NCBI GenBank assembly: GCA_022013685.1
Contig: JAKLPV010000054.1
Location: 1 to 64,000, forward strand
DNA length: 64,000 bases
Source: Anaerolineae bacterium
Lineage (GTDB): Bacteria; Chloroflexota; Anaerolineae; Anaerolineales; Villigracilaceae
Direction of reading: 5' to 3'
Part shown: positions 2,267 through 28,066 of the stretch, in pieces
Layout: each line of letters begins with the position of its first letter
Position numbering within the stretch: the stretch's first letter is position 1
Notes under the pieces: model-generated
Seen by the model: only the letters and a program-made list of their open reading frames with translations
What the model was told of the DNA's origin: nothing
Database searches by the model: none
Program-made: the position numbers and the translations under genes

Positions 2267-3394
2267 CTAAGATTTTGCAACAAACCCTTCCAGGATGCGA
2301 CTCGCGCGGGCGGTCCAGCTGTAATTTTCGGCGTCTTTGCGGGCCTGGGCGCCGAGCGTGGTGCGCCGGGCGGGGTTGTCGAGCAGCCCGCGCAGGGCGC
2401 CCTGCCAGGCGTTGCTGTCATCGGGCGGGCAGAAGGCAGCGTTGTTTTCGTTGAGCACTTCGTGAAAAACCGGCAGATCGCTGCTCAAGATGGCGCGCCC
2501 GGTGGCGAGATATTCGAACATCTTCATCGGGCTCGAGATTTTGGACGAGTTGCCCATTCCGCCCGAAATGGCGATGATCTGGCTATAGGGCATCAGCAAA
2601 ACGTCGGCAGCGGCCTGGTAAAGGGTCAACTGCTGGTTGGGGACAAACCCCGCAAAGTTGACATTCGGCAATTCTTTTGCCGCTTCGCGCCATTTTTCTA
2701 CATCTTCGGGTTTGCCGCCCGCCCACAGGAACTGGACATCGCTCATGCGCCCGGCCAGTTTCAGGAACAATTCCACGCCGCGCCCGGCGTACAGATGGCC
2801 GGTGCAGGCTATCGTGGGGGCTTCGGGAAGGTTCAATGAACGGCGGGCCGTTTTCGGGTCGGGAAGGTTGGCAAAGCGTTCGAGTTCGACTCCGTTCGGG
2901 GCCAGGATAACATCTTTCGGGGCGAGAAAAGTCCCGAATTGTTCATCCAGGGCTGTGTGTAAAGCCCGGGTGATGATGCTGATGCGCTTTTTCCCGCGCA
3001 TATCGCGGAAATAACGATACCAGAATGGGCCGATCCGCCCGCTGGGCAGGTCGTGAACTTCCATGATGACCGGAAATCCGTGCAGCAAGCCCAGGACGGC
3101 TGATTGCACCGGCCAGACATAGAGCAGGTCGGGCTTGAAGGCGCGCGCGCGGCGGACGGCGGTCAGGAAGAACAGGCGGCGCGAGGGCGCAGCGATGTAT
3201 TCCAGGCTGAAGCGGGTCTTCAGGCCGTAGAGTTGGGCGAGGCTATCCCAATCGGTGCTGGGGTTCTCGTGGTTCGGAACGATTAAGGTGACATCGTGTC
3301 CCAACTGCGCCAGGGCGTGGACGGCTTTCATGGCCTGGATGCTGTTGGCAACGCTGGACGGGATTTGCGAGGCGGAGATGGCGACGATTTTCAT
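2267..3394 (-). CDS. Glycosyltransferase family 4 (GT-B fold)
   Basis: A 375-residue retaining glycosyltransferase that transfers a sugar from an NDP- or lipid-linked donor to a glycan acceptor at the cytoplasmic face. The N-terminal domain shows SQIPSSVANSIQAMKAVHALAQLGHDVTLI, typical of GT4. The C-terminal donor domain has ACTGHLYAGRGVELFLKLA, VLLMPYS and the terminal pattern SPMKMFEYLATGRAILSSDLPVFHEVL, which contains the conserved E of the EX7E region. AAAGGA precedes the ATG at 3394. It belongs to the minus-strand run with the membrane protein and gmd. Donor and acceptor cannot be read from sequence. Confidence 0.85.
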   Translation of the reverse strand: MKIVAISASQIPSSVANSIQAMKAVHALAQLGHDVTLIVPNHENPSTDWDSLAQLYGLKTRFSLEYIAAPSRRLFFLTAVRRARAFKPDLLYVWPVQSAVLGLLHGFPVIMEVHDLPSGRIGPFWYRYFRDMRGKKRISIITRALHTALDEQFGTFLAPKDVILAPNGVELERFANLPDPKTARRSLNLPEAPTIACTGHLYAGRGVELFLKLAGRMSDVQFLWAGGKPEDVEKWREAAKELPNVNFAGFVPNQQLTLYQAAADVLLMPYSQIIAISGGMGNSSKISSPMKMFEYLATGRAILSSDLPVFHEVLNENNAAFCPPDDSNAWQGALRGLLDNPARRTTLGAQARKDAENYSWTARASRILEGFVAKS

Positions 3395-4176: not shown

Positions 4177-4617
4177 CTATTCGGTTTTTCGAGTTGACAT
4201 CAAGATCGCATCTTCGCCATTTGCATAGTAGCCACGGCGGCGGCCATCTTCTTCGAAGCCAAAACTGCGATACAGAGCCTGGGCGGGCAGGTTGCTGGCG
4301 CGCCCTTCGAGCATTACGCGCGGAAAGCCCAGTTCGGCGGATTTATCCAGCGCGGTCTGGACCAGGGCCCGGCCAATGCCTTGCCGCCAAAAATCGGGGT
4401 GGACGGCTACGTTGGCGATTTCGCCCTCGCCGACCACGTCCCAGAGCGTCAGCGACCCGGCCAGGCGGCCCTCCGCTTCGGCGACCCAGCAAAAAGTGGT
4501 CTGTTTGAGCAGTTCGCGGGCATAGGCGTTTGGGCTCCAGGGCAGCAAAATCCCAGCGGCGGTGTCGATTGCCACCACGCTTATGATGTCGGCTGGGCCC
4601 ATGCGACGGATGTTCAT
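4177..4617 (-). CDS. rimI: Ribosomal protein S18-alanine N-acetyltransferase
   Basis: A GNAT-family acetyltransferase of 146 residues; RimI acetylates the N-terminal alanine of ribosomal protein S18. The acetyl-CoA loop is visible as VHPDFWRQGIGRALVQTAL, followed by MLEGRASNLPAQALYRSFGFEEDGRRRGYYANGEDAILM, which matches the RimI signature (E-R-N-A-LY--GF). The start codon overlaps the tsaB stop (ATGA), implying translational coupling. The tsaB-rimI order is a common bacterial arrangement and strengthens the assignment over a generic GNAT. Confidence 0.9.
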   Translation of the reverse strand: MNIRRMGPADIISVVAIDTAAGILLPWSPNAYARELLKQTTFCWVAEAEGRLAGSLTLWDVVGEGEIANVAVHPDFWRQGIGRALVQTALDKSAELGFPRVMLEGRASNLPAQALYRSFGFEEDGRRRGYYANGEDAILMSTRKTE

Positions 4618-5282
4618 CCCGGGATGACTTCGCCGATGTGCAGGTAGATCGGGGCCAGGCTGGCAGCAGGGTCGGTCTGACCGGCTTGCCAGTGTTGAAA
4701 AGCGAGCTCGGCCAGGATTCCCGGTCGGCGGGCAGAGGCAGCCGGGGATGCCAGCAAAATGTTCTCGTTTTTGAGTAAAAGCTGACGTTCGGCGGCGGTC
4801 AGTTCACCCGTCAAAAGGGTTGCGGAGGTGATCTCGGCGGCCACCGTTTCGGCGGTCGTCACGCCCGCGCTGCCCGTCGCCTGCCACCCGTTTTCTGACG
4901 CGCTATACCAGCCGAGAGCGAGTCGTCCGCGCCCGGCAGCCAGGACACAGGCCAGAGGCCGGGATGCGCCCACCGCCACCTGCGCGGCGAGGATGTCGAG
5001 GGTCGGGATCCCGATCAGCGGCAGGGAGCGGCTCATCGCCAGTCCCTTCCCAAAAGCCAGCCCGACCCGCAGCGAGGTGAACGAACCGGGACCGATCGCC
5101 ACCCCGATCGCCGCTACCTGGCTGATGTCTGTGCCGGTTTGCGAGAGCATTTGGGCCACGGCCGGAGCCAGTTCGATGGTGTGACGGGCTTTGCTGACCC
5201 ACAGGTGCTCGGCCACGATGCGCGCGCCGTCATAGAGCGCGAGTCCGATCTGGGGGGTGGATGTGTCGAGGGCGAGGAGCAT
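4614..5282 (-). CDS. tsaB: tRNA t6A biosynthesis protein TsaB
   Basis: A partner of TsaD/TsaE in N6-threonylcarbamoyl-adenosine (t6A37) formation on ANN-decoding tRNAs. The 222-residue protein starts with LLALDTSTPQIGLALYDG and contains the ASKHA-type stretch AIGVAIGPGSFTSLRVGLAFGKGLA, diagnostic for TsaB/YeaZ. It overlaps rimI by 4 bp and lies 87 bp after tsaE. No clear Shine-Dalgarno sequence precedes the ATG at 5282. tsaD is not in the window. Confidence 0.93.
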   Translation of the reverse strand: MLLALDTSTPQIGLALYDGARIVAEHLWVSKARHTIELAPAVAQMLSQTGTDISQVAAIGVAIGPGSFTSLRVGLAFGKGLAMSRSLPLIGIPTLDILAAQVAVGASRPLACVLAAGRGRLALGWYSASENGWQATGSAGVTTAETVAAEITSATLLTGELTAAERQLLLKNENILLASPAASARRPGILAELAFQHWQAGQTDPAASLAPIYLHIGEVIPG

Positions 5283-5299
5283 AGTTTTTTTGGTGTCAG

Positions 5300-5333
5300 G
5301 CCCTGAGCGGAGGCGTAGCCGTAGTCGAAGGGC
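5300..5333. repeat. REP-like palindrome (CTGAGCGGAG / AGTCGAAGG type)
   Basis: A single unit beginning CCCTGAGCGGAG and ending TAGTCGAAGGG in the tsaE-tsaB gap. The same two half-sites recur at 19926-20030 and 29808-29905, so this is a dispersed extragenic palindrome family rather than a local regulatory site. Confidence 0.75.
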
Positions 5334-5357
5334 GGGGTCGGAGAGTAATTGGTAATT

Positions 5358-5388
5358 GGGGATTGGTAATTACCAATTACCAATCCCC
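5358..5388. repeat. 14-bp perfect hairpin over the tsaE stop codon
   Basis: GGGGATTGGTAATT pairs perfectly with AATTACCAATCCCC around a 3-nt ACC loop. The last codons and the stop of tsaE (5370) lie inside it, so the QGIGNW tail is encoded by the repeat. The unit TAATTGGTAATTGGGG continues to the left as a partial direct repeat. No T-tract follows on the minus strand; it is probably an inserted palindrome or an mRNA 3'-end stabiliser. Confidence 0.65.
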
Positions 5389-5831
5389 TGAATTAAGGTT
5401 TCGGGGCGTGTTCCGTGAGCGCTGATTTCTACTTGGCGTTCGGTTTCGGAGATGTGAGTAAGTGTCATCCAGATGCGTTCTGTGGGCAGGAGCGCTTCAA
5501 TGCGCTCGGGCCATTCAAGGATCAGAGCGCCTTCGGCCAGCATATCGTCGATGCCGATCTGGGCGGCTTCGGGCAGGCTTTCGATGCGGTAAGCATCCAT
5601 ATGATAGAGCGGCGTGCCGTCCTGGGCGCGATACAGATTAACCATCACAAAAGTCGGGCTGGAAACGGAATCGACGCTGCCCCAGCCTTCGGCCAGCCCC
5701 TGGGTAAAGGTGGTTTTGCCTGCGCCCAGGTCGCCTTGCAGGCAGAGCAGGTCGCCGGGTTGCAGGAGCCTGCCCAGTTTGCGGCCAAGTTCGCGGGTTT
5801 GATCGGGAGAGTTGCTGGTGATGGAGGCCAT
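5370..5831 (-). CDS. tsaE: tRNA t6A ATPase TsaE
   Basis: The ATPase that drives the TsaBDE complex in t6A synthesis. It has 153 residues, the usual family size. The Walker A motif is GDLGAGKTTFTQGLAEGWG, followed by VSSPTFVMVNLYRA, HMDAYRIE and LILEWPERIEALLP, all family hallmarks. It is the first gene of the tsaE-tsaB-rimI-udg run. The short divergent gap before the MscS gene at 5960 must hold its promoter. The extreme C-terminus is coded by an inserted palindrome. Confidence 0.93.
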   Translation of the reverse strand: MASITSNSPDQTRELGRKLGRLLQPGDLLCLQGDLGAGKTTFTQGLAEGWGSVDSVSSPTFVMVNLYRAQDGTPLYHMDAYRIESLPEAAQIGIDDMLAEGALILEWPERIEALLPTERIWMTLTHISETERQVEISAHGTRPETLIQGIGNW

Positions 5832-5959
5832 TGGCCGAAATTATACCCGTCCCGGCGATAAATGGACAATAGAGGCCCGCGCGCGTTTGCGGCCCCGCGC
5901 AGGATGTGCTGTAAAAAGTTTCTGGTAAGATTGGGACATGTTGCCTGGAGGTAGTTGTA

Positions 5960-6763
5960 ATGAATTTTGGAACTGAAATCGAACTCCGTTTATTGGACTT
6001 TCTGCCGAGATTGGGGCTGGCGCTGGTGATTTTTATCGCCAGTCTGTATTTTTCCAAATTATTAAGCGGTTTGGTGCGCCGCGCCATGCAAAAACGAAGC
6101 CTGATGCCCAATGCTGCCAACCTGATTGTCGATATGACCCGCTGGGGAATCCTGACGCTTGGCACGGTCATGGCGTTCCAACAATTCGTTGATGTGACGG
6201 CTTTCCTGGCCGGGCTGGGGATCATTGGCTTTACGGTTGGTTTTGCCTTGCAGGATGTGATGAAGAACTTTGCTTCGGGCGTCATCCTGCTGGTGCAGCA
6301 GCCGTTCCGGGTGGGTGATTCGGTCGAAGTTGGCGCTTACGAAGGGATGGTGCAGGCAATTGACTTGCGTTCGACCGAAATCAAGACTTTTGACGGGCGA
6401 ATTGCCATCCTGCCCAATGCGGATGTTTTGAACCATGCGATTGTCAATTACACCCGCAGCCTGCAACGCCGGGTGGAAGTGATCGTCGGTGTGGCTTATG
6501 GCACCGACCTGAAACTGGCGCGTGATACGGCTCTGGATGCGATCCGCGCGGTGCCGGGTTACATCGAAGAGCCGGTTTCACAGGTGGTGTTTAAGGATTT
6601 CGGCGATTTCTCGGTCGATATGTCAGTATTCGTTTGGATCGATACCGCCCAGACCGGCCCGCTCAAAGCGCGGGATGCGGCGATAGAAGTCATCAAGGCC
6701 GCTTTCGATGCGAATAAGATCGATATTCCATTCCCGATTCGGACGGTGTTGATGGAGAAGTAA
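5960..6763 (+). CDS. Small-conductance mechanosensitive channel, MscS family
   Basis: A pore protein that opens under membrane tension during hypo-osmotic shock. The 267-residue protein has three N-terminal membrane helices; the pore-lining TM3 is Gly/Ala rich (AFLAGLGIIGFTVGFALQDVMKNFASGVILLVQ). It is followed by the beta domain (PFRVGDSVEVGAYEGMVQAIDLRSTEIKTFDGRIAILPNADVLNHAIVNYTR), which is highly characteristic. A GGAGG-type ribosome binding site lies about 8 bp before the ATG. It is monocistronic and ends just before tRNA-Val on the other strand. Confidence 0.93.
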   Translation: MNFGTEIELRLLDFLPRLGLALVIFIASLYFSKLLSGLVRRAMQKRSLMPNAANLIVDMTRWGILTLGTVMAFQQFVDVTAFLAGLGIIGFTVGFALQDVMKNFASGVILLVQQPFRVGDSVEVGAYEGMVQAIDLRSTEIKTFDGRIAILPNADVLNHAIVNYTRSLQRRVEVIVGVAYGTDLKLARDTALDAIRAVPGYIEEPVSQVVFKDFGDFSVDMSVFVWIDTAQTGPLKARDAAIEVIKAAFDANKIDIPFPIRTVLMEK

Positions 6764-6819
6764 AAAATACGGGGCGTCTGTGGAAAAGAAAAAGGCCTCA
6801 TTTCTGAGACCTTCTTAGG

Positions 6820-6893
<74 letters not shown>

Positions 6894-6918
6894 GTGCGCC
6901 GAATTATACCCGAAAATT

Positions 6919-7458
6919 TCAGGCTGATTGATAAACTCGCAACCCGCCCATATCCATCAGGCGGTTGGAGATGCCTGCCTTGGCGGCGCCTTTCAGTCGA
7001 TTGATAATAGACTCGTACAAAGCCGGGTCATTCCATAGGTGCTTGAGTGCGTGGCGTGAGAGCAAATCTGCGCCGCGATTGTGCTTGCGCGGCAGCCACT
7101 GCCAGCGTAGTTTACTGAAGTGACGCGCCAGACGCACCGTGCGCGCATAGAGCGGCTTGACTGCCAGGGATGAAACGCTTGCCGATCCCTGCATTTGGCT
7201 GATGACGCTTTTGGCATCGCCGCAGACCAGCACACGTTCGTGATTAACGCCCATATCCAGCAGGGCCTCCAGCCCTTCGACCAGCGCTAGGTATTCGGCA
7301 ATGTTCGAGTTGGCGTTTTGTCCGCGCGCAAAAGTGCCATGTCCGTGCGCAATGACCTGTTTGTCTCGCAAAATCCGCCAGCCATAGCACATGATCCCCG
7401 CCGATGAGTGCTCTTCGTCTGTATTGCGGAACAAACCATCAAATTCCAGCCTCAGCAT
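6919..7458 (-). CDS. RNase H-like (type HI fold) protein
   Basis: A 179-residue protein of the ribonuclease HI / reverse-transcriptase-like superfamily, predicted to cleave RNA in RNA/DNA hybrids. The four acidic positions are all present: D7 (LEFDGLF), E55 (NSNIAEYLALVEGL), D81 (VLVCGDAKSVI) and D131 (RKHNRGADLLSRHAL). This suggests an active nuclease. The length resembles the plant/archaeal-type proteins more than E. coli RnhA. The ATG at 7458 is chosen because AGGAG lies 6 bp upstream; an in-frame TTG two codons earlier is less likely. Upstream is a structured leader with a terminator ending exactly at the ribosome binding site. The gene may be a housekeeping RnhA or a specialised paralogue. 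Confidence 0.8.
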   Translation of the reverse strand: MLRLEFDGLFRNTDEEHSSAGIMCYGWRILRDKQVIAHGHGTFARGQNANSNIAEYLALVEGLEALLDMGVNHERVLVCGDAKSVISQMQGSASVSSLAVKPLYARTVRLARHFSKLRWQWLPRKHNRGADLLSRHALKHLWNDPALYESIINRLKGAAKAGISNRLMDMGGLRVYQSA

Positions 7459-7467
7459 ACACAACTC

Positions 7468-7511
7468 CTAAAAAAAAGACGCACCCGCAGGACATAAGTC
7501 CGCAGGTGCGT
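7468..7511 (-). terminator. Intrinsic terminator abutting the RNase H-gene ribosome binding site
   Basis: On the minus strand a 14-bp stem (ACGCACCTGCGGAC with GTCC-t-GCGGGTGCGT, one bulged T, one G-T pair) and a 4-nt loop is followed by C and eight T (7470-7477). AGGAG follows immediately and then ATG. Because no promoter fits between the T-tract and the start codon, transcription of the gene has to pass this terminator, which implies attenuation. Confidence 0.8.
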
Positions 7512-7629
7512 GAGGGCGATTGAAATACAGGCGAACTGTTGAGGTTCTCATTGATAAAATTTGACTTGATTGGTGTGAGCGTATCCTGTTTCGGTTCAAA
7601 GAGTCACTCTACCTGCAATGTTTTCTCAC
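7502..7629 (-). ncRNA. Candidate cis-regulatory leader RNA (riboswitch-like)
   Basis: On the minus strand GCAGGT (7616-7611) and GTGA (7607-7604) can pair with TCAC (7513-7510) and ACCTGC (7507-7502), closing a ~115-nt domain. A second nested helix pairs GAAACAGG (7592-7585) with CCTGTATTTC (7531-7522), one A bulged. The ACCTGC strand of the closing helix is also part of the 5' arm of the downstream terminator, so the two structures exclude each other. No known riboswitch consensus was recognised. Confidence 0.55.
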
Positions 7630-7631
7630 CT

Positions 7632-7660
7632 ATTTTGCATTTTTTTTGAACCAAAGTCAA
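7632..7660 (-). promoter_or_regulatory. Sigma-70-type promoter of the RNase H leader
   Basis: TTGACT (7660-7655) and CAAAAT (7637-7632) are separated by exactly 17 bp on the minus strand. The predicted start at about 7628 gives a leader of ~170 nt that contains the structured domain and terminator. Confidence 0.5.
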
Positions 7661-7765
7661 TCAAGATTGCGTAAAAATTTGTTTAACGTTTTATCTTCAA
7701 GAACAACAGGATTATGCTACACTTTGCCTGATCAAAAATATTTTGCGCTTCAACAGGAGATTCTC

Positions 7766-8527
7766 ATGCGTTTTATTCGCTTTCAACTCAAAGACCAATC
7801 CGCCCGCCAGGGCTGGATACTGGATGACAAAATTGGTGAAGTGGAAGGCGACTTTTTTGGCGAATATCGCCGCCTGAAAGCTGAAATCCCGCTCGAGGAT
7901 GTTCGCTTATTGGCCCCCTGCCAGCCGGGGAAGATTATTTGTGTCGGGCGAAACTACGTCGATCACGCCAAGGAACTTGGCAATGAAGTGCCAACTGTGC
8001 CGCTGATCTTTATGAAACCGCCCTCCTCGGTCATCAACCCCGGCGATGCAGTCATCCTGCCGCCGCAATCCAGGCAGGTCGAGCACGAGGCTGAATTGGT
8101 GGCTGTAATCGGCAAGCGCGGACGCAATATCACTGCGGACCAGTCTCGCGAATATATCTTTGGCTATACCATCGGCAATGACATCACGGCCCGCGACCTG
8201 CAAAAAAGCGATGGACAGTGGACGCGCGCCAAAGGTTTTGACACTTTTTGTCCTCTCGGCCCGTGGATCGATACCGATTTTGACGCTGCCGACGCGCTCA
8301 TTACCTGTCGGGTTAGCGGACAACCGCGCCAGATGGGTTCGACCCGCGACATGGTCTTCAGTGTTGGCACGTTGGTTGCCTTTGTCTCTTCCGTCATGAC
8401 CCTCGAGCCGGGCGACCTGATCTTTACCGGTACGCCAGCCGGGGTGGGGCCGCTGCTCGATGGCGATGAGGTGACTGTTGAAATCGAAGGCCTGGGATCG
8501 CTGAACAATCTGGTGCGAAAGGGATAG
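7766..8527 (+). CDS. Fumarylacetoacetate hydrolase family protein
   Basis: A FAH-superfamily enzyme (253 residues), acting on 2-oxo acid or acylpyruvate-type substrates such as 5-oxopent-3-ene-1,2,5-tricarboxylate or oxaloacetate; the exact substrate is not readable. Visible are [20 protein letters not shown], the metal-binding [39 protein letters not shown] and the terminal [15 protein letters not shown]. The ATG at 7766 follows AGGAG with 6-bp spacing. The frame is open 40 codons further upstream, but that part overlaps the promoter region and lacks family similarity. An extended -10 (TGCTACACT, near 7715-7723) lies upstream. It is followed 3 bp later by a lipoprotein esterase gene. Confidence 0.88.
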
Positions 8528-20852: not shown

Positions 20853-22178
20853 ATGACGGCCTATCATTTTCCAAAAGGTTTTTTGTGGGGCACGGCAACG
20901 GCTGCGCATCAGGTCGAGGGCAACAATACCAACAACAACTGGCACCGCTGGGAGCAGGAAGGCCACACCAAACACCTTTCGGGGCTGGCCTGCGACTGGT
21001 GGGGCGGACGCTGGCGCGAGGACATGGATCGGGCTGCCGAAACCGGCCAGAACGCGCACCGCTTCTCGGTCGAGTGGAGCCGTATCCAGCCCGAGCCGGA
21101 CCGCTGGGACGAGGACGCGCTCGAGAAATATCGCGCCATGGCGCGCGGCATGGTCGAACGCGGCATCACGCCGATGGTTACGCTGCACCACTTCACCGAC
21201 CCGCTCTGGCTGTACGACCGCTGCGGTTGGGAGAAGACCGAAGTTGTGCCGCTGTTCGAGAAATTTGTGCGCAAAACGGTCGAGGCGCTTAAGGAATACG
21301 TCAGCCTGTGGACGACGATCAACGAGCCGAATATCTATGCGCTGAGCGGCTACGTGACCGGGGATTTCCCCGCCTGTCACAAGGGCACGAAGATTGCCAT
21401 GCAGGTGCTGGCCAACATGCTGCGCGGACACGCTGCCGCCTACCGCGCCATTCACGAGATCCAGCCCGAGGCGCGCGCCGGGTATGCCCTGCATTACCGT
21501 CCGATGCTGGCGGCCAACCCGTGGTCGCCACTCGACCGGATGATGCGCGACCTGCAATATAACGGGATTAACATGGCTTTCCCGAGCGGCATTTCGACCG
21601 GAGTAATGCGCACCCCGATCGGCAATTTCAACATCCCCGAAGCCAAAGGCACCCAGGATTTCCTGGGCCTGAACTATTACTCGGTCGATACGGTCAAGTT
21701 CGACCTGGGCAGCGCCAGGGAATTGTTCGGCAAACGCTACTACCCGGCGGATTCGGACTTTAGCGCGACCAATTTCATCGCCAACATTCCCGAGGGGCTG
21801 TACCAGTCGATTGAGTGGATGGCCAAAACCTACCCGAACCTGCCAATTCTGATCACCGAGAACGGCGTCGAAGACCCGGACGATGCCATGCGCCCGCGTT
21901 ACCTTGTCCAGCATTTGCACCAGGCCTGGCGGGCGCTCAATTACGGCTTCCCGGTCAAAGGCTATTTCCACTGGTCGCTGGTGGATAACTTCGAGTGGGA
22001 GCGCGGCTGGACGCAGCGCTTCGGCCTGTGGGGGTTGGACACTGAAACCCAGGCCCGCATCCGCCGCCCGAGCGTGGACCTGTACGCGGCCATCTGCAAG
22101 GAAAACGGCCTGACCCGCGAGATGGTCGCGCAGTACGCGCCTGAAGTGCTCGAGAAGGTTTTTCCGGCGGTTGGGTAG
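20853..22178 (+). CDS. Glycoside hydrolase family 1 (beta-glucosidase/beta-galactosidase type)
   Basis: A cytoplasmic retaining beta-glycosidase of 441 residues. It begins FPKGFLWGTATAAHQVEG, the classical GH1 N-terminal signature. The acid/base is E158 in TTINEPN and the nucleophile E336 in ILITENG. The C-terminal VKGYFHWSLVDNFEWERGWTQRFGL is the aglycone-site region. The first conserved codon is ATG 20853 behind AGGGA; a start 54 bp upstream would put the twin-hairpin repeat in the protein. The final 69 bp are repeated at 24348-24416, and the stop codon is joined to a cassette-like boundary (GTTAGGC). Confidence 0.9.
   Translation: MTAYHFPKGFLWGTATAAHQVEGNNTNNNWHRWEQEGHTKHLSGLACDWWGGRWREDMDRAAETGQNAHRFSVEWSRIQPEPDRWDEDALEKYRAMARGMVERGITPMVTLHHFTDPLWLYDRCGWEKTEVVPLFEKFVRKTVEALKEYVSLWTTINEPNIYALSGYVTGDFPACHKGTKIAMQVLANMLRGHAAAYRAIHEIQPEARAGYALHYRPMLAANPWSPLDRMMRDLQYNGINMAFPSGISTGVMRTPIGNFNIPEAKGTQDFLGLNYYSVDTVKFDLGSARELFGKRYYPADSDFSATNFIANIPEGLYQSIEWMAKTYPNLPILITENGVEDPDDAMRPRYLVQHLHQAWRALNYGFPVKGYFHWSLVDNFEWERGWTQRFGLWGLDTETQARIRRPSVDLYAAICKENGLTREMVAQYAPEVLEKVFPAVG
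22110..22178 (+). repeat. GH1 3'-end direct repeat, copy 1
   Basis: The last 69 bp of the GH1 gene, from CTGACCCGCGAG to the TAG stop. The copy at 24348-24416 matches at 66 of 69 positions, and a diverged 33-bp segment at 23118-23150 matches at 27 of 33. Confidence 0.85.
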
Positions 22179-22184
22179 TTAGGC
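22178..22184 (+). other. Candidate attC-type core site GTTAGGC
   Basis: The sequence fits the integron core GTTRRRY and begins with the last base of the GH1 stop codon. The same cassette's inverse core GCCTAAC at 23037 is its exact reverse complement, as expected for a cassette recombined between G and TT. Confidence 0.5.
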
Positions 22185-22205
22185 GTTTTCATAGAGTGAA
22201 TAACA

Positions 22206-23042
22206 ATGTCCATTGACAATAATAATACGAGCAATTACCTCACGCCTGAACAATACGATGAATTGTTTGAAGTAATTCAAGAATACACCTTGATTGTTTT
22301 GGCATCCATAACTGATAATTCTACAAGTGTGCGAGATGTAATCATTAGGAACTTTATTGCCAGAGGATTGACCTGTTTAAGAAGTATTTTGCACATATGG
22401 AAACTTGGAGACTTCGACAATTGCTGGAGCATTTTTCGAATAATGTTAGATCGTCTATTTCATTTGCAATCATTATGGGATAAGAACGAATTTGAAGTCT
22501 TCGAGAAATGGTCATTTATTCAACAATATAAAGCAAGGCAAGACGCCCGAAGCGATCCAGAATTGAGAAAAAAAGTACATTCATCGCGTATCTCCTTTAC
22601 GCCTGATGAAAAAAAACGATATAACCAATTAATCAAGGAAAATATTAAGTGGGTTCGCCCAAAGGCAGAAATAGTAGCCAAGAGTCAGGATTTGTCCTTT
22701 TTATATAAATATGGCTATGATTATGCTTCCACTCTTGTACATCCTATGGCTACGGATGGGGCAAGTGACTTTGAACAATTATCAAAGGGTATTATAGCTA
22801 TCCCCAGAGAATCATTGGGGGTGTTACAAAACGCAGTACTTGCTCAATTATTGCTTATTCAGATAGGTTTAAACGCGAGCGATTTGCAATGGCGAACGAT
22901 TATGTATGATTTCATCGATGAATGTTTATCTGCGCTAAAAGGTTACAATCAAAAATATCGTTTTACTTTTGCAAAAATAGCAACGATGAGTCCCGGTGTT
23001 CAGTGGTGCGAGCCAAGAAAATTAAAACCAAACCGCGCCTAA
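22206..23042 (+). CDS. DUF5677-like protein of unknown function (AT-rich, cassette-borne)
   Basis: 278 residues, largely helical, soluble, no signal peptide. Distinctive stretches are NFIARGLTCLRSILHIWKLGDFDNCWSIFRIMLDRLFHL and YGYDYASTLVHPMATDG. The repeated helical pattern with conserved His/Asp near STLVHP resembles proteins annotated DUF5677, which have no proven function; this family call is tentative. Codon usage is AT-rich and unlike the host genes on both sides, suggesting recent acquisition. The TAA stop is part of GCCTAAC. No Shine-Dalgarno sequence is evident before ATG 22206. Confidence 0.6.
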   Translation: MSIDNNNTSNYLTPEQYDELFEVIQEYTLIVLASITDNSTSVRDVIIRNFIARGLTCLRSILHIWKLGDFDNCWSIFRIMLDRLFHLQSLWDKNEFEVFEKWSFIQQYKARQDARSDPELRKKVHSSRISFTPDEKKRYNQLIKENIKWVRPKAEIVAKSQDLSFLYKYGYDYASTLVHPMATDGASDFEQLSKGIIAIPRESLGVLQNAVLAQLLLIQIGLNASDLQWRTIMYDFIDECLSALKGYNQKYRFTFAKIATMSPGVQWCEPRKLKPNRA

Positions 23043-23170
23043 CGTCATGTTTTCAAGGCACGCAACGCTTTTTCGCGAAATGATGCCCCGCCATCTTGCG
23101 CGAGTGTATAAGGCAAATACGCGCCTGAGGTGACGGGCAAGGTTTTTCCGCAATTAAGTAATAGTTGGGC
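23037..23170 (+). other. Candidate attC recombination site of cassette 1
   Basis: Bounded by inverse core GCCTAAC (23037-23043) and core GTTGGGC (23164-23170), 134 bp apart, at the long end of the attC size range. Inside, CGCGAA-ATGATG (23074-23085) can pair with CATC-TTGCGCG with unpaired bases, as in attC hairpins. The right part (23118-23150) resembles the GH1 3' end. Outer-arm pairing beyond the core sites is poor by eye. Confidence 0.4.
23118..23150 (+). repeat. GH1 3'-end repeat, diverged copy 2
   Basis: TACGCGCCTGA-GTG...AAGGTTTTTCCG matches 27 of 33 bases of the GH1 gene end. In both copies a GTTRGGC core follows within about 20 bp, so the similarity extends to the organisation around the cassette boundary. 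Confidence 0.6.
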
Positions 23171-23944
23171 GGCCACATCTGAATCTCATATATATGCTAA
23201 ACATAAACGAATTAAACACACTGATTACCCATCTAAAATTTAACCTTATACCTTTCAAGGGTATCTCTCGTTTTTCAACCGAAAAAGGGATTTACGCCAT
23301 TGGCTTTGATGGGATTGAATTCCCTTTAGCGTCAGCTATTCACAAGATAAAGCCAAATGATATTATTTACATTGGTAAGGCAGAAGATAGCCAGAGAGAA
23401 CGAGATGCTAATAGTCATTTTAAAAGTGATCAGACAGGACATTCTACAGTTAGAAGATCTTTAGGCGCTATTCTAAGAAAAAAATTGGGATTTATGCCTG
23501 TACCTCGTAGCTTTACAGAAACTAGCAATAAGCGATTTGTAAATTACAAATACTCTTTAGAAGGTGAAAATAAATTGACCGAGTGGATGATTGATAATTT
23601 ATCTCTATCCTATTGGGAATGGAATGACTCTATAGAAAATTTACGGAAAGCAGAAAAGCAGGTTATAAGATTTTTTACTCCAATCTTAAATCTTGCTAAC
23701 AACCCAAATAATGATTGGCGTTCAGAAATTCAAGATCTGCGTGCTGAATGCGCGGATTTGGCCAAACAATACAAACCACGATAACAAATGTAAGCCAAAA
23801 TGCCGCCTACTGATATATGCAGTGACGAATGAAGGCAAAGCTTAAACCATCTTGCAAGACTCGCCCAACACTGTTTCTCAGGATTCGTCGAGCGTTTTTT
23901 CTTGGAAAAATGATGGCCCACCAGCCAAAATTTAAAGGTAATTT
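23165..23944 (+). mobile_element. Candidate integron gene cassette 2 (GIY-YIG-like gene), right end unclear
   Basis: Begins TTGGGC; the ORF starts 28 bp later. A matching inverse core GCCCAAC lies at 23863-23869, 79 bp after the stop. The 65 bp after it resemble the left half of the first attC (both have a T-run and then AATGATG-CCC-CCA at 44-48 bp from the inverse core). No right-hand GTTRRRY was found before or in the next gene, so the end given here is arbitrary and the site is probably truncated. Confidence 0.4.
23194..23784 (+). CDS. GIY-YIG-like nuclease domain protein (AT-rich, cassette-borne)
   Basis: 196 residues. The pair GIYAIGFDG (~residue 30) and DIIYIGKAEDSQRERDANSHF (~residue 60) fits the GIY...YIG core. 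It is followed by a basic helix (RRSLGAILRKKLG) and an acidic ENKLTEWMIDNL where the family carries its metal-binding Glu. It would be a small endonuclease or a nucleic-acid-binding relative. C-terminal part: FFTPILNLANNPNN, then a charged helix. Very AT-rich. A restriction or anti-element role is possible, but no partner methylase is present. Confidence 0.6.
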   Translation: MLNINELNTLITHLKFNLIPFKGISRFSTEKGIYAIGFDGIEFPLASAIHKIKPNDIIYIGKAEDSQRERDANSHFKSDQTGHSTVRRSLGAILRKKLGFMPVPRSFTETSNKRFVNYKYSLEGENKLTEWMIDNLSLSYWEWNDSIENLRKAEKQVIRFFTPILNLANNPNNDWRSEIQDLRAECADLAKQYKPR

Positions 23945-24334
23945 ATGATAAAGACCCATCAAGAATTTATGTCCCAATTCGACGATGATCGCAAGCCGCT
24001 GGTCGCCGCTTTGCTGGCAGCCATTGTCGAAGCATGTCCCGGCCTGAGCGAAACGATCAAATGGAATGCGCCGACTTTTTGTGATAACGGCAAAGATCGT
24101 ATGACGATCATGCTGCACAAAAAAGAGCGGGTCGGGCTGGTCCTGCACACCGGCGCAAGACCCAAGGAAGACAAGAACGCGCCGCACCTGTATGCCGACG
24201 AGAGCGGGCTGCTCGACTGGAACTCGAACATCCGCGCCACGATTTCCTTTTTTGCGCTTGACGAGTTCCTTTCTAAAAGGGAACAGTTCAAAAAGGTTGT
24301 CAAACGCTGGCTTGTAGAGACAAAAAGCCTGTAG
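23945..24334 (+). CDS. DUF1801 (YdhG-like) protein
   Basis: 129 residues. The family marks are ETIKWNAPTFCDNGKDRMTIMLHKKERVGLVLHTGA, then LDWNSNIRATISF and a basic C-terminal helix. DUF1801 proteins have a YdhG-like alpha/beta fold and no firmly known activity. The base composition is host-like, unlike the two genes before it, so it probably belongs to the chromosomal backbone or to an older insertion. The ATG follows AAAGGTAATTT. A copy of the GH1 3' end begins 14 bp after its stop. Confidence 0.75.
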   Translation: MIKTHQEFMSQFDDDRKPLVAALLAAIVEACPGLSETIKWNAPTFCDNGKDRMTIMLHKKERVGLVLHTGARPKEDKNAPHLYADESGLLDWNSNIRATISFFALDEFLSKREQFKKVVKRWLVETKSL

Positions 24335-24347
24335 CGTAAAAATGCGT

Positions 24348-24416
24348 CTGACCCGCGAGATGGTCGCGCAGTACGCGCCCGAGGTGCTCGAGAAGGTTTT
24401 TCCGGCGGTGGGGTAG
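24348..24416 (+). repeat. GH1 3'-end direct repeat, copy 3
   Basis: 66 of 69 bases match the end of the GH1 gene, including the in-frame TAG. No GH1 coding sequence precedes it. It marks the right edge of the accessory stretch and is either the remnant of a second GH1 copy or a duplication made on insertion. Confidence 0.85.
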
Positions 24417-24465
24417 ATTTTTCTATTGCTCGTTCTCTTCCCTATATTTATAAAAAACAAAACGA

Positions 24466-25281
24466 TTATTTTTTTGACTCAACTTTTCCGCTAAACGGAT
24501 TGATGAATATATCTACTAGCCCTGTATCTGTTTCATATTCAATGCGCCAGTCGCCGTCCCGTATATCAGCCCGTATTCTACACCTATCTTGATTTACTTT
24601 TCCCCCGTTTTTGTTTGCGATTTGAACGGCCTGTTCGGCCGTCGTTTTAAACTTTGTCAGTTCAATATTCCCCCAAGGGAATATGAATAGTTCAGAAAAC
24701 TCACCGTCCCCAGCCCATACTGCTGTTCCCCTCCAGGGAGTCAATGTCAAGTAGCGTGCAGAATAAACTGTCTCCCAACCTATTTTGATTGTTTTGTAAT
24801 AGACAATATGAAAATCATTAAATCCACCAAAGGTGTCACTACAATGACCGATAAAATAAAAACTATAGATGGCCCAACCATCCAAGTCCAAAGGCTCATT
24901 CCATATCTTTTGACTTAGCGCACTGGCAACACGCAAGAAGTCGGCTTGGGTCCACGCGATGTTGTCATACTCAATATCCGGATCATCGAGACGGGGATCC
25001 ATTGCCAACCGTGCAAATACATCCGTCTTGCCTTGCTCCAGGGAGGCAAGGATGGTCTGTGAATTGAACTGGTAATATCCAATCCTGTTGTTGGAATAAC
25101 CACTCAAGAAACCCGGACTCGGCTCAGGCTTCGAATCACGGAGAAAAACCTCGTAGAATGTGAGATCTATGGATGACTTATGGTTTTCGTAGTATCCGTA
25201 GGTCAAGGCGAGTAAAGCCAACAAAGAGACAATTGTCCAAGAAACAGCCTTGATGACGCGCTTTACCATTCGGTTGTTCAT
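24466..25281 (-). CDS. Membrane-anchored extracytoplasmic protein, unknown function
   Basis: About 271 residues: a basic N-terminus, one signal-anchor helix (AVSWTIVSLLALLALTYGYY), then an extracytoplasmic domain rich in aromatic residues. The last 60 residues (TTAEQAVQIANKNGGKVNQ...WRIEYETDTGLVDIFINPFSGKV) look like a PepSY-type fold. ATG 25281 is preferred to 25290 because the latter would leave no spacing from AGGAG. Family not recognised. AT-rich relative to the 25.5-kb region. Confidence 0.6.
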   Translation of the reverse strand: MNNRMVKRVIKAVSWTIVSLLALLALTYGYYENHKSSIDLTFYEVFLRDSKPEPSPGFLSGYSNNRIGYYQFNSQTILASLEQGKTDVFARLAMDPRLDDPDIEYDNIAWTQADFLRVASALSQKIWNEPLDLDGWAIYSFYFIGHCSDTFGGFNDFHIVYYKTIKIGWETVYSARYLTLTPWRGTAVWAGDGEFSELFIFPWGNIELTKFKTTAEQAVQIANKNGGKVNQDRCRIRADIRDGDWRIEYETDTGLVDIFINPFSGKVESKK

Positions 25282-25519
25282 ATTTATCATCTCCTTGTGT
25301 GGTTCAGAATACTCTTCACCGGCGTATAATTGTAGTTCACGTTTTGATGGTTCTTAGAAATCTAATTGCAAATCAGATGAAAACAGCGCTAACACCTTGC
25401 ACATCAGACGGGCTGCCGTGCAACCGTTAAGACGCTTTTGTGGCAAACATTTTTCTCCCGTTTCGCAAGTTGGTTCTCGGCAACCTGCCGGTAACACCAG
25501 CCGATAAGCAGAGGCCATT

Positions 25520-28066
25520 GTGTCAAAAGACGAACTGCTCCAAGCGGCCATCGCCGCCGCCAAAGCGGGAAACCGCGCCCAGGTTGCCGGGTTATTCATG
25601 CAGGTGGTCAAGCTCGACCCGGCCTGTGAACAGGCCTGGCTGGGTTTGGGCTATTGTCTGCCTGAAGCCGATCGGCGCGAATATTGTTTTCGGCGTGTGC
25701 TGGCCATTAACCCGAACAACCGTGTTGCCAGGGCCGAACTGGCGCGTTTATCGAAGCCGGCAGCTCCGCCCCCGGCCCCGGTCCCGGCCCGGCAATCCCC
25801 TTTTGTCGAAAGCGGCAACGCTCCCCGCAGGCCGGTGGAATCTGTTGCTCCGCCGCGCCCCCCCGCGCCGGTCACAGTTCCAAAGGCGGAAGCGCCTGCG
25901 CCCAGGCGGGAAGCAGCTCCCGCAGCGTCCACGCCAGCCGCCGCCAAAGCGCTCCGCCCAAAGCCAGCCGTCAAGAAAAAGAAGAAATCCAACCTGCCGC
26001 TGGTGGCGGCCCTGGCTGCCGTGGCTGGGTTCGTCCTGCTCGGGAGTGTTGTCGGGGTCGGGTATGCAATTTTCGGTTGGGGCAGGCCCTCGGGCCTGGC
26101 TGCAAATCCGCCCGCGCTTGCCAGCCAATCGGGTTCGCAAACCCCTGTCACGCCGCTCGCCACTCCCAGCCCAACCCCCGTTCCGCCAACGCCCATTCCG
26201 AGCCCGCTGCCCACAATCGTTTACACACCGGTCTATGAAGATGTGCCCTGCCCGTTTAACGCGCCCAACGCATCGGTCAACTGTGGATATTTGACTGTCC
26301 CGGAAGATCGCACCGGCGACCCCGAGCGCACGATCAAGCTGGCGGTGGCCGTTTATCGCACCCGCAGTGAAGACCCGGCCGAGCCGGTCGTTTTTTTGCA
26401 GGGAGGTCCGGGGGCCGGGGCGGTTAATTTGAGCGCCAATGCCTATCACGTTCTTGTCTCGCCCTTTCTCGCAAAGCGGGACTTTATTACTTTTGACCAG
26501 CGCGGCACCGGGTTATCTGAACCTGTTCTTGAGTGTGAAGAATTAACAAAAATGTACCTGCAGGATATTCGCGGGCTGATCGATAGTTCAACCCGCGACC
26601 TGGTCTATGCCAACGCATTCCATTCCTGCAGCGGTTTGATGAAGGGCCAGGGAATACAGTTACGGGGGTACAGTACCCTCGAAAGCGCGGCGGACGTGCG
26701 CGACCTGCTTGCTGTGCTGAACTATCCGCAGGCGCATCTGTATGGCGCTTCATACGGGACGCGGCTGGCGCAGGTGATTATGCGCGAGTATCCGCAGATC
26801 GTGAAAACCGCAATCATCGATTCTGTTGTCCCGGTCGATACAAGCCTTTTCGGCAATTATTCCAACTCGATCACATCCGGGCTGGAGACGTTGTTCAGCA
26901 ACTGCGCCATCGATCCGCAGTGTAACGCCGCCTACCCCGATCTGGAAAATACATTTTGGAATCTGGTCAAAGAATTGGACGAAAACCCGGTTACGGTGAC
27001 GAGTTCAGATTACCCGACCGGGCTGGTTACTCAAACTGTGACCGGTGAGACGCTGATCAACCTGGTTCTGGGATCGATTAAAAGCTCTCGCTTCATAGAT
27101 ACAGCGCCTCAAACCATTTCCCGTTTCAAAGGCGGAGATTTCTCGACCCTGGTCATGCAGCAATCTTCCTTGCTTTTCATGTTCGATGATTTTGCTTCGG
27201 GCCTGTTCATCAACATGACCTGCCATGAACAGGTGCTTTCGACCACGCTCGAAGACGCCCGGACGGAAGCAAACCAACTGATCATCAGGGATTACGCCTG
27301 GCTTCCTTTTTATGGGGATGTCGACGATGTATTTAAGACTTGCGAATCCTGGGGCGCGGCGGCCCCGGCCTATGGCGAAAACAGCCCGACGATCAGCGGC
27401 ATTCCTTCCTTGATCATCACCGGTTCCTACGACCCTACCACGCCGCCCGATTACGGCAAACAGATCGCAGCCCATTTGAGCAACAGTTATTACTTTGAAT
27501 TTCCAACGCTGGGGCACACCCCCACCGCGGCTGATTCTTCGGGCTGCGCAATGGATATTGTTTTGCAGTTTCTCGATAACCCCGGGGCCGAACCCGACCG
27601 CGCCTGTTTGGGTGAGTTGGAGAAGCCCGTTTTCGTTGTCCCTTACACAGGCGATCCCCCGTTGGGGTTAAAAACCGTAACATCTTACGGGATCAAAATG
27701 AGCGTTCCCAAAGATTGGCATGAATCCGGCGAAGGATTTTACTACCGGGGGAATTCGCCATTCGATATCACCGAAGTGGGCATTTTGGTGCTTCCTGTCA
27801 GCATCGATAACATCGAAGAATTTTTTTCGTCAAAAGTGAATGGCTATCGCGGGCTGGACGGCCCGCTGATCCCTGCCGGGGAGCGGAGCGCAAACGGGTT
27901 TACCTGGCAGCTTTACACCTCGTCTTCGTATGGCCGCCCGGTTGATATTGCCATGGTCGAAGATCGAGGCTGGTCGATTATCGTGATGCAATTCTGCAAC
28001 CAGGATGAACACGATGCGCTTTACCGGACCGTGTTTTTGCCGATCGTTGACTCTGCAAGCCGGTGA
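25520..28066 (+). CDS. TPR/membrane-anchored alpha/beta-hydrolase (tripeptidyl-aminopeptidase type)
   Basis: A three-part protein of 848 residues. Residues 1-75 form tetratricopeptide-like helices (AAKAGNRAQVAGLFMQVVKLDPACEQAWLGLGYC). A Pro/Ala linker leads to one membrane helix after KKKKSN (~residues 160-185). From ~235 there is a TAP-type hydrolase: DVPCPF, QGGPGAGAV, DQRGTGLSEP, nucleophile S411 in GASYGTRLA, D638 in TGSYDPTTPP and H666 in TLGHTP. The last 130 residues form an extra domain. It probably cleaves peptides or proline esters outside the cell, with the TPR part facing the cytoplasm. The start is GTG (25520). It overlaps the next gene's start region. Confidence 0.8.
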   Translation: MSKDELLQAAIAAAKAGNRAQVAGLFMQVVKLDPACEQAWLGLGYCLPEADRREYCFRRVLAINPNNRVARAELARLSKPAAPPPAPVPARQSPFVESGNAPRRPVESVAPPRPPAPVTVPKAEAPAPRREAAPAASTPAAAKALRPKPAVKKKKKSNLPLVAALAAVAGFVLLGSVVGVGYAIFGWGRPSGLAANPPALASQSGSQTPVTPLATPSPTPVPPTPIPSPLPTIVYTPVYEDVPCPFNAPNASVNCGYLTVPEDRTGDPERTIKLAVAVYRTRSEDPAEPVVFLQGGPGAGAVNLSANAYHVLVSPFLAKRDFITFDQRGTGLSEPVLECEELTKMYLQDIRGLIDSSTRDLVYANAFHSCSGLMKGQGIQLRGYSTLESAADVRDLLAVLNYPQAHLYGASYGTRLAQVIMREYPQIVKTAIIDSVVPVDTSLFGNYSNSITSGLETLFSNCAIDPQCNAAYPDLENTFWNLVKELDENPVTVTSSDYPTGLVTQTVTGETLINLVLGSIKSSRFIDTAPQTISRFKGGDFSTLVMQQSSLLFMFDDFASGLFINMTCHEQVLSTTLEDARTEANQLIIRDYAWLPFYGDVDDVFKTCESWGAAAPAYGENSPTISGIPSLIITGSYDPTTPPDYGKQIAAHLSNSYYFEFPTLGHTPTAADSSGCAMDIVLQFLDNPGAEPDRACLGELEKPVFVVPYTGDPPLGLKTVTSYGIKMSVPKDWHESGEGFYYRGNSPFDITEVGILVLPVSIDNIEEFFSSKVNGYRGLDGPLIPAGERSANGFTWQLYTSSSYGRPVDIAMVEDRGWSIIVMQFCNQDEHDALYRTVFLPIVDSASR

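Follow-up and report, generated by a model that had tools for sequence, protein, structure and literature searches.

Directly after the stop codon of a GH1 glycosidase gene, the DNA analysed here (a stretch of 64,000 nucleotides, referred to as the window) carries two AT-rich genes bordered by short complementary sequences of the kind that delimit integron cassettes. The locus raises the question whether these genes are indeed cassettes, as the initial annotation had proposed, and by what route they came to lie at the end of a chromosomal gene. The genome is a draft (5.28 Mb, 239 contigs, 99.56% complete, 5.33% contaminated), and the joins discussed below rest on its assembly.

Boundary layout of the two genes

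The 5' core of cassette 1, GTTAGGC, occupies positions 22178-22184 of the forward strand, its first base doubling as the final G of the GH1 TAG, while the stop codon of ORF1 lies inside the inverse core GCCTAAC at 23037-23043. The core of cassette 2 (Table 1) has its counterpart in GCCCAAC at 23863-23869, 3' of ORF2. These cores, reading frames and inverse cores were confirmed within one or two bases of where they had been placed originally; the core-to-ORF spacing, given then as 27 and 28, measures 28 and 30 bases from the first base of the respective core to the starts of ORF1 and ORF2. The GC content is 0.385 in the first segment and 0.375 in the second, against 0.613 in the GH1 gene and 0.549 in the window.

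On either strand, every open reading frame with 120 aa or more was scanned for GTTRRRY 5' of the start together with the exact complementary 7-mer overlapping or following the stop. This design was present in 2 of the 122 window ORFs, only ORF1 and ORF2, which are adjacent and arranged head to tail; with ORF ends re-paired, 0.11 such cases would be expected per window by chance. A loose core pattern applied to the whole genome did not outperform the same pattern reversed (351 + 397 vs 356 + 337).

Table 1. Features of the GH1 locus in window coordinates; R2 is the covariance model built from attC sites of the genus.
Feature	Position	Strand	Evidence
GH1 glycosidase gene, intact	20853..22178	+	PF00232 E 2.7e-77 (Pfam)
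GH1 3' end, source of tail copies	22110..22178	+	69-nt repeat, 96% to 24348-24416
Cassette 1 ORF (ORF1)	22206-23042	+	278 aa, DUF5677; PF18928 E 2.3e-19 (Pfam)
Inverse core GCCTAAC and left part of cassette 3' site (relic)	23037..23097	+	repeat-family match, 9 substitutions
Diverged GH1 3'-end copy, in place of the first site's right half	23098..23163	+	local alignment
Core GTTGGGC, 5' boundary of cassette 2	23164-23170	+	sequence and leader match
Cassette 2 ORF (ORF2)	23194-23784	+	196 aa, GIY-YIG domain; PF20815 E 1.2e-26 (Pfam)
Conserved cassette 3' flank up to inverse core GCCCAAC	23804..23870	+	match to G003:C26
Cassette 3' site of cassette 2, left part only	23863..23926	+	similar to array contig C9 (G000)
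DUF1801 gene	23945..24334	+	PF08818 E 2.9e-12; 89.5% DNA identity to G001
GH1 3'-end copy, 3' of DUF1801	24339..24416	+	69 bp at 96% (24348-24416)
PepSY-like ORF	24466..25290	-	weak PF03413 match, below cut-off; attC relic then
Decayed attC, genus type	25388-25509	+	R2, 20.7 bits
Alpha/beta hydrolase gene	25520..28066	+	PF00561

Cassette pool, resident integrases and the state of the 3' sites

Both cassettes have boundary sequences in common with each other and with the resident cassette pool, and are therefore of cassette origin. The 34-nt leader after core 1 matches a leader that follows an attC in a sister array, as does the leader after core 2, with a null fraction of 0.0002 in each case (1 in 5000 window pieces matches as well). 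The sequence AAACCGCGCC before the inverse core of cassette 1 is typical of the pool, and the final 67 nt of cassette 2, ending with the inverse core, match G003:C26:221-287 at 85%; there GCCCAAC is the start of an intact attC scoring 97 bits. The resemblance noticed earlier between the segments that follow the two inverse cores is real: a single repeat family, seen at cassette ends elsewhere in this genome, accounts for the left 60-70 bases of either site. The gene of cassette 1 was found in no further genome among 251 searched in the order, and for that of cassette 2 the 250 other genomes yielded a single relative, at 40%. The proposal of integron-type cassettes in Chloroflexota, from which integrons have already been reported (PMC2426708; PMC8618304), is supported, and the named relatives of the GH1 gene are Anaerolineales.

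The cluster had been described as lacking a visible integrase, which holds for the surroundings of the cassettes and for the window but not for the genome, where two intact integron integrases without stops lie on other contigs (TIGR02249, 459 and 453 bits; cut-off 265, exceeded by 0 of 14 control genomes). The search for intI and further cassettes that had been recommended thus returned two integrases, together with 19 matches to R2 at E<=1; at the same threshold, genomes G001, G003, G002 and G004 gave 32, 13, 2 and 0 matches. The integrase contig C197 of this genome (G000) and the large array of G001 have a common flank (84.7% over 919 bp), and the integron is therefore a resident chromosomal locus. 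Integrases above the curated cut-off were present in 31 of the 61 genomes surveyed in the order, in which integrons are hence common; G001 had no integrase match at E<=1e-40.

Both integrases are located near contig ends and are 92.5% alike over 1254 bp, including the region upstream of the integrase. These copies (loci L014 and L015, last ~1250 bp) have differing flanks, which may reflect two integrons in the genome or two strains in the bin. The long cassette array at G001:C2:58001-76000, with no strong integrase match, occupies the same chromosomal locus as the C197 integrase, and within G001:C19:141001-149000 positions 3089-3160 resemble the upstream region of the G000 integrase (72 bp, 80% identity) and are then followed by attC cassettes. 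Several cassette-like genes are separated by units of ~400 bp, 84-91% alike (G001:C7:44001-56000, ~4456-8455; G000:C9 locus, 5458-5868), which combine an inverse core with a terminator-like hairpin and with sequence resembling the region upstream of the integrase, and end in GTTRRGC; cassettes with such units look like each carrying an attI-like site.

The attC sites of the genus were modelled from an alignment of 11 of them, which share an 18-pair stem with paired changes on both sides at 8 of the 18 pairs. The covariance model R2 combines this stem with the R boxes, and the sites used for building it match by construction. A previous model from mixed families (R1) had no base pairs and was dropped, the genus-only alignment giving R2.

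With these tools the two cassette sites read as broken, not as working attC. No attC was found by R2 at 23037-23170 or starting at 23863 (E<=10, filters off), and the one overlapping line, on the opposite strand at 23824-23889 (3.3 bits, E 8), is noise. Hairpin folding of the bottom strand against shuffled sequence gave z values of +0.23 and -0.16 at the two sites, compared with -2.3 to -5.8 at six comparison sites of the same order; for the 30-nt arms of the first site, pairing was weaker than in 92% of the null pairs, and Rfam returned chance-level matches only. The view that the inverse cores open working attC sites is thus contradicted. The first site turns into a diverged copy of the GH1 3' end after ~60 bases, while the second is broken off at ~23926, with homology to the DUF1801 leader of G001 beginning at ~23927. 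One decayed attC of the genus type persists further downstream; with E values of 1.6e-4 in 8.5 kb, 0.0055 in 296 kb and 0.098 in the whole genome it is marginal genome-wide when taken alone and convincing at this place.

The interval between GH1 and the kinase gene, and the copies of the GH1 end

The interval between GH1 and the kinase gene is an insertion hotspot. In G004 the kinase gene lies directly 3' of GH1 with no insert, whereas the interval of G001 holds, in order, an unnamed ORF, a GH1-end copy, HigB-HigA, a GH1-end fragment, DUF1152, a kinase-start copy and DUF1801, with no attC found there by R2. The alpha/beta hydrolase gene of the present locus is found between GH1 and kinase in neither relative, and the PepSY-like ORF here is probably the inverted gene of a third cassette. 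The contig of G003 stops exactly at the GH1 TAG and the kinase side was not found in that genome, which hints at variation there; G003 contig C26 was tried as the continuation of this broken contig and rejected, having no match to the GH1 tail or flank.

Length and content at the site are accordingly polymorphic in relatives. The comparison of empty sites that had been suggested yielded the insert-free G004 but no exact empty site, since the sequence at its stop codon differs, and the claim of an insertion exactly at the GH1 stop therefore stands as a position, only the left junction being integrase-like. Two observations had been named beforehand as speaking against the cassette reading: the lack of an attC match at relaxed score is what we found, while the lack of polymorphism in relatives is the opposite of what we found.

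The 3' end of GH1 recurs within the interval. The copy downstream of DUF1801 reads, at 24408-24423, GGGTAG/ATTTTTC where GH1 itself reads GGGTAG/TTAGGC (the slash follows the stop codon), and the diverged copy in the first cassette site reached a local alignment score of 23, compared with 15 for the best of 1649 other window pieces. Neither of these two copies, nor the decayed attC, had been noted in the initial annotation. The tail is native to GH1, because the orthologs in relatives end in a homologous C-terminus; as insert-free orthologs share it, a derivation of the tail from an attC was ruled out. Among 80 GH1 loci compared, clear downstream copies of the own tail were seen only in G001, with weaker matches in loci L148 and L159, which speaks against such copies being typical of this gene at large. 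Since attC-less genes of G001 also have GH1-end copies beside them, some insertions there occurred without the integron, and the copies are a mark of insertion at this site as such rather than of the integron alone.

Further repeats were noted in the same genomes. Within G001:C24:48001-68000 the kinase-start copy before DUF1801 measures 67 nt (5417-5483 vs 5926-5991, 79% alike), and a small ORF (323-706) upstream of an RlmB-like gene lies between 68-nt direct repeats (242-309 and 723-790, 94% alike). A near-palindromic repeat of ~87 nt occurs at many places in G002 (e.g. C58:37229-37315) and is 94% identical to the G001 sequence after the kinase gene.

Origin of the arrangement and comparison with known systems

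We consider it likely that ORF1 and ORF2 are cassettes of the genus integron pool that became stranded in the hotspot between GH1 and the phosphotransferase gene, their boundaries still readable and their attC sites lost. As the attC structure needed by the integrase is lost at both sites, the cassettes should be immobile. In an off-target, attG-like event, an integron integrase would first have inserted each of the cassettes behind the final G of the GH1 TAG or of a copied TAG; the left junction and the GGGTAG/ATTTTTC of the downstream copy fit an integrase cut after that G. Later recombination would then have joined pieces each carrying a GH1-end copy, replacing the right halves of the attC sites, and this may be why each cassette now follows a GH1 end. 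Counting against this account are the lack of an exact empty site, a right junction that is not an attC junction, the GH1-end copies beside attC-less genes in G001 and the draft state of the assembly. Read-through from GH1 may allow expression of cassette 1, because ORF1 starts 27 bases past the GH1 stop.

Other histories were weighed on the same evidence. A clean and recent insertion, in which a resident integrase placed both cassettes at the GH1 stop as an attG-like site and the sites, unusual as they are, still function, is possible but in our judgement unlikely: the cassette does begin exactly after the G at the left junction, the downstream copy has the sequence expected of an uninterrupted site, the contig of G003 ends at the GH1 TAG and integron integrases are present in the genome, but neither cassette site has an attC fold or R2 match, the right end is without the second half of an attC, and strand exchange by an integrase does not yield the 69-bp GH1-end copy. 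It is quite conceivable, if somewhat short of probable, that ordinary recombination brought in DNA of a related strain (a GH1 end with its downstream genes) through a homologous joint at one end and an illegitimate joint at the other; the integron would only have supplied the donor with its cassettes. Such one-sided homologous joining, or homology-facilitated illegitimate recombination, is a described route (PMC3240628), and it suits both the GH1-end copies of varying extent that precede inserted genes in two genomes, attC-less genes included, and the kinase-start copy before DUF1801 in G001; it is opposed by the failure to find any donor arrangement, and by the length of four of the five GH1-end copies, ~66-78 bp, which appears more uniform than random joints or one-sided joining would suggest, five cases being too few to decide.

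A more far-reaching idea, which we hold to be improbable, is that the 3' end of GH1 repeatedly accepts new DNA, every gene or cassette gained there bringing a ~70-bp GH1-end copy by a defined, undescribed process; in cassette 1 the copy would have taken the place of the attC right half, fusing the host gene end and the cassette site in register with the core. Finally, the 7-mers might be coincidental and merely stand beside unrelated foreign genes. They are short, and R2 does not match the two sites, but two adjacent cases against the expectation given above, and boundaries and flanks that match true cassettes, already disfavour chance and make it hardly credible.

Off-target cassette insertion and integrase-less clusters are already known (PMC8618304; for attG sites, as cited in PMC12901181 and PMC12444791), and the locus is not a new kind of system; its interest comes from the unusual detail of the record and from the GH1-end copies. 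It shows a route by which cassettes can pass from an integron into the stock of ordinary, fixed chromosomal genes, in a phylum whose integrons are little studied, and the GH1-kinase interval of relatives offers a natural series of gains. If the GH1-end copies did arise by one defined process, this would be a new route of single-gene acquisition.

Measured by the usual marks of a cassette, the ORF between core and inverse core and the boundary shared with a nearby integron are present and the imperfect attC hairpin is absent, while the mark of an integron platform, an integrase with its specific domain, is found in the same genome. One of the closest likenesses is to the chromosomal integron of the genus (G000 C197; G001 C2), the source of the cassette boundaries and 3' flanks, although the attC sites of those arrays fold and those of the two cassettes do not. 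SCC elements insert at the 3' end of rlmH with duplication of that end; here too the host gene (GH1) is intact and 3'-end copies lie beside inserted genes, but the inserts contain no recombinase gene. A CALIN is a cluster of attC sites lacking an integron integrase, for which off-target insertion by an integrase elsewhere is one proposed origin (PMC8618304), and the IntegronFinder default, as quoted in PMC12444791, is two attC sites. The present genes resemble a CALIN in lying away from any integrase and in one orientation (the third, inverted, is uncertain), and differ from it in that one decayed attC (25388-25509) is recognised, not at least two. Genomic insertion at attG (Loot et al. 2024, as cited in PMC12901181 and PMC12444791) resembles the present case in that the cassette begins immediately behind a G of the chromosome and that an integrase is encoded in the genome; it differs in that the right junction here is without a complete attC and the rest of the target, the second site abuts the DUF1801 leader, and copies of the host-gene end are interspersed. 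Falling outside the CALIN definition and differing from attG insertion at the right junction, the two cassettes are therefore filed under neither class but as decayed members of the cassette pool of their genus.
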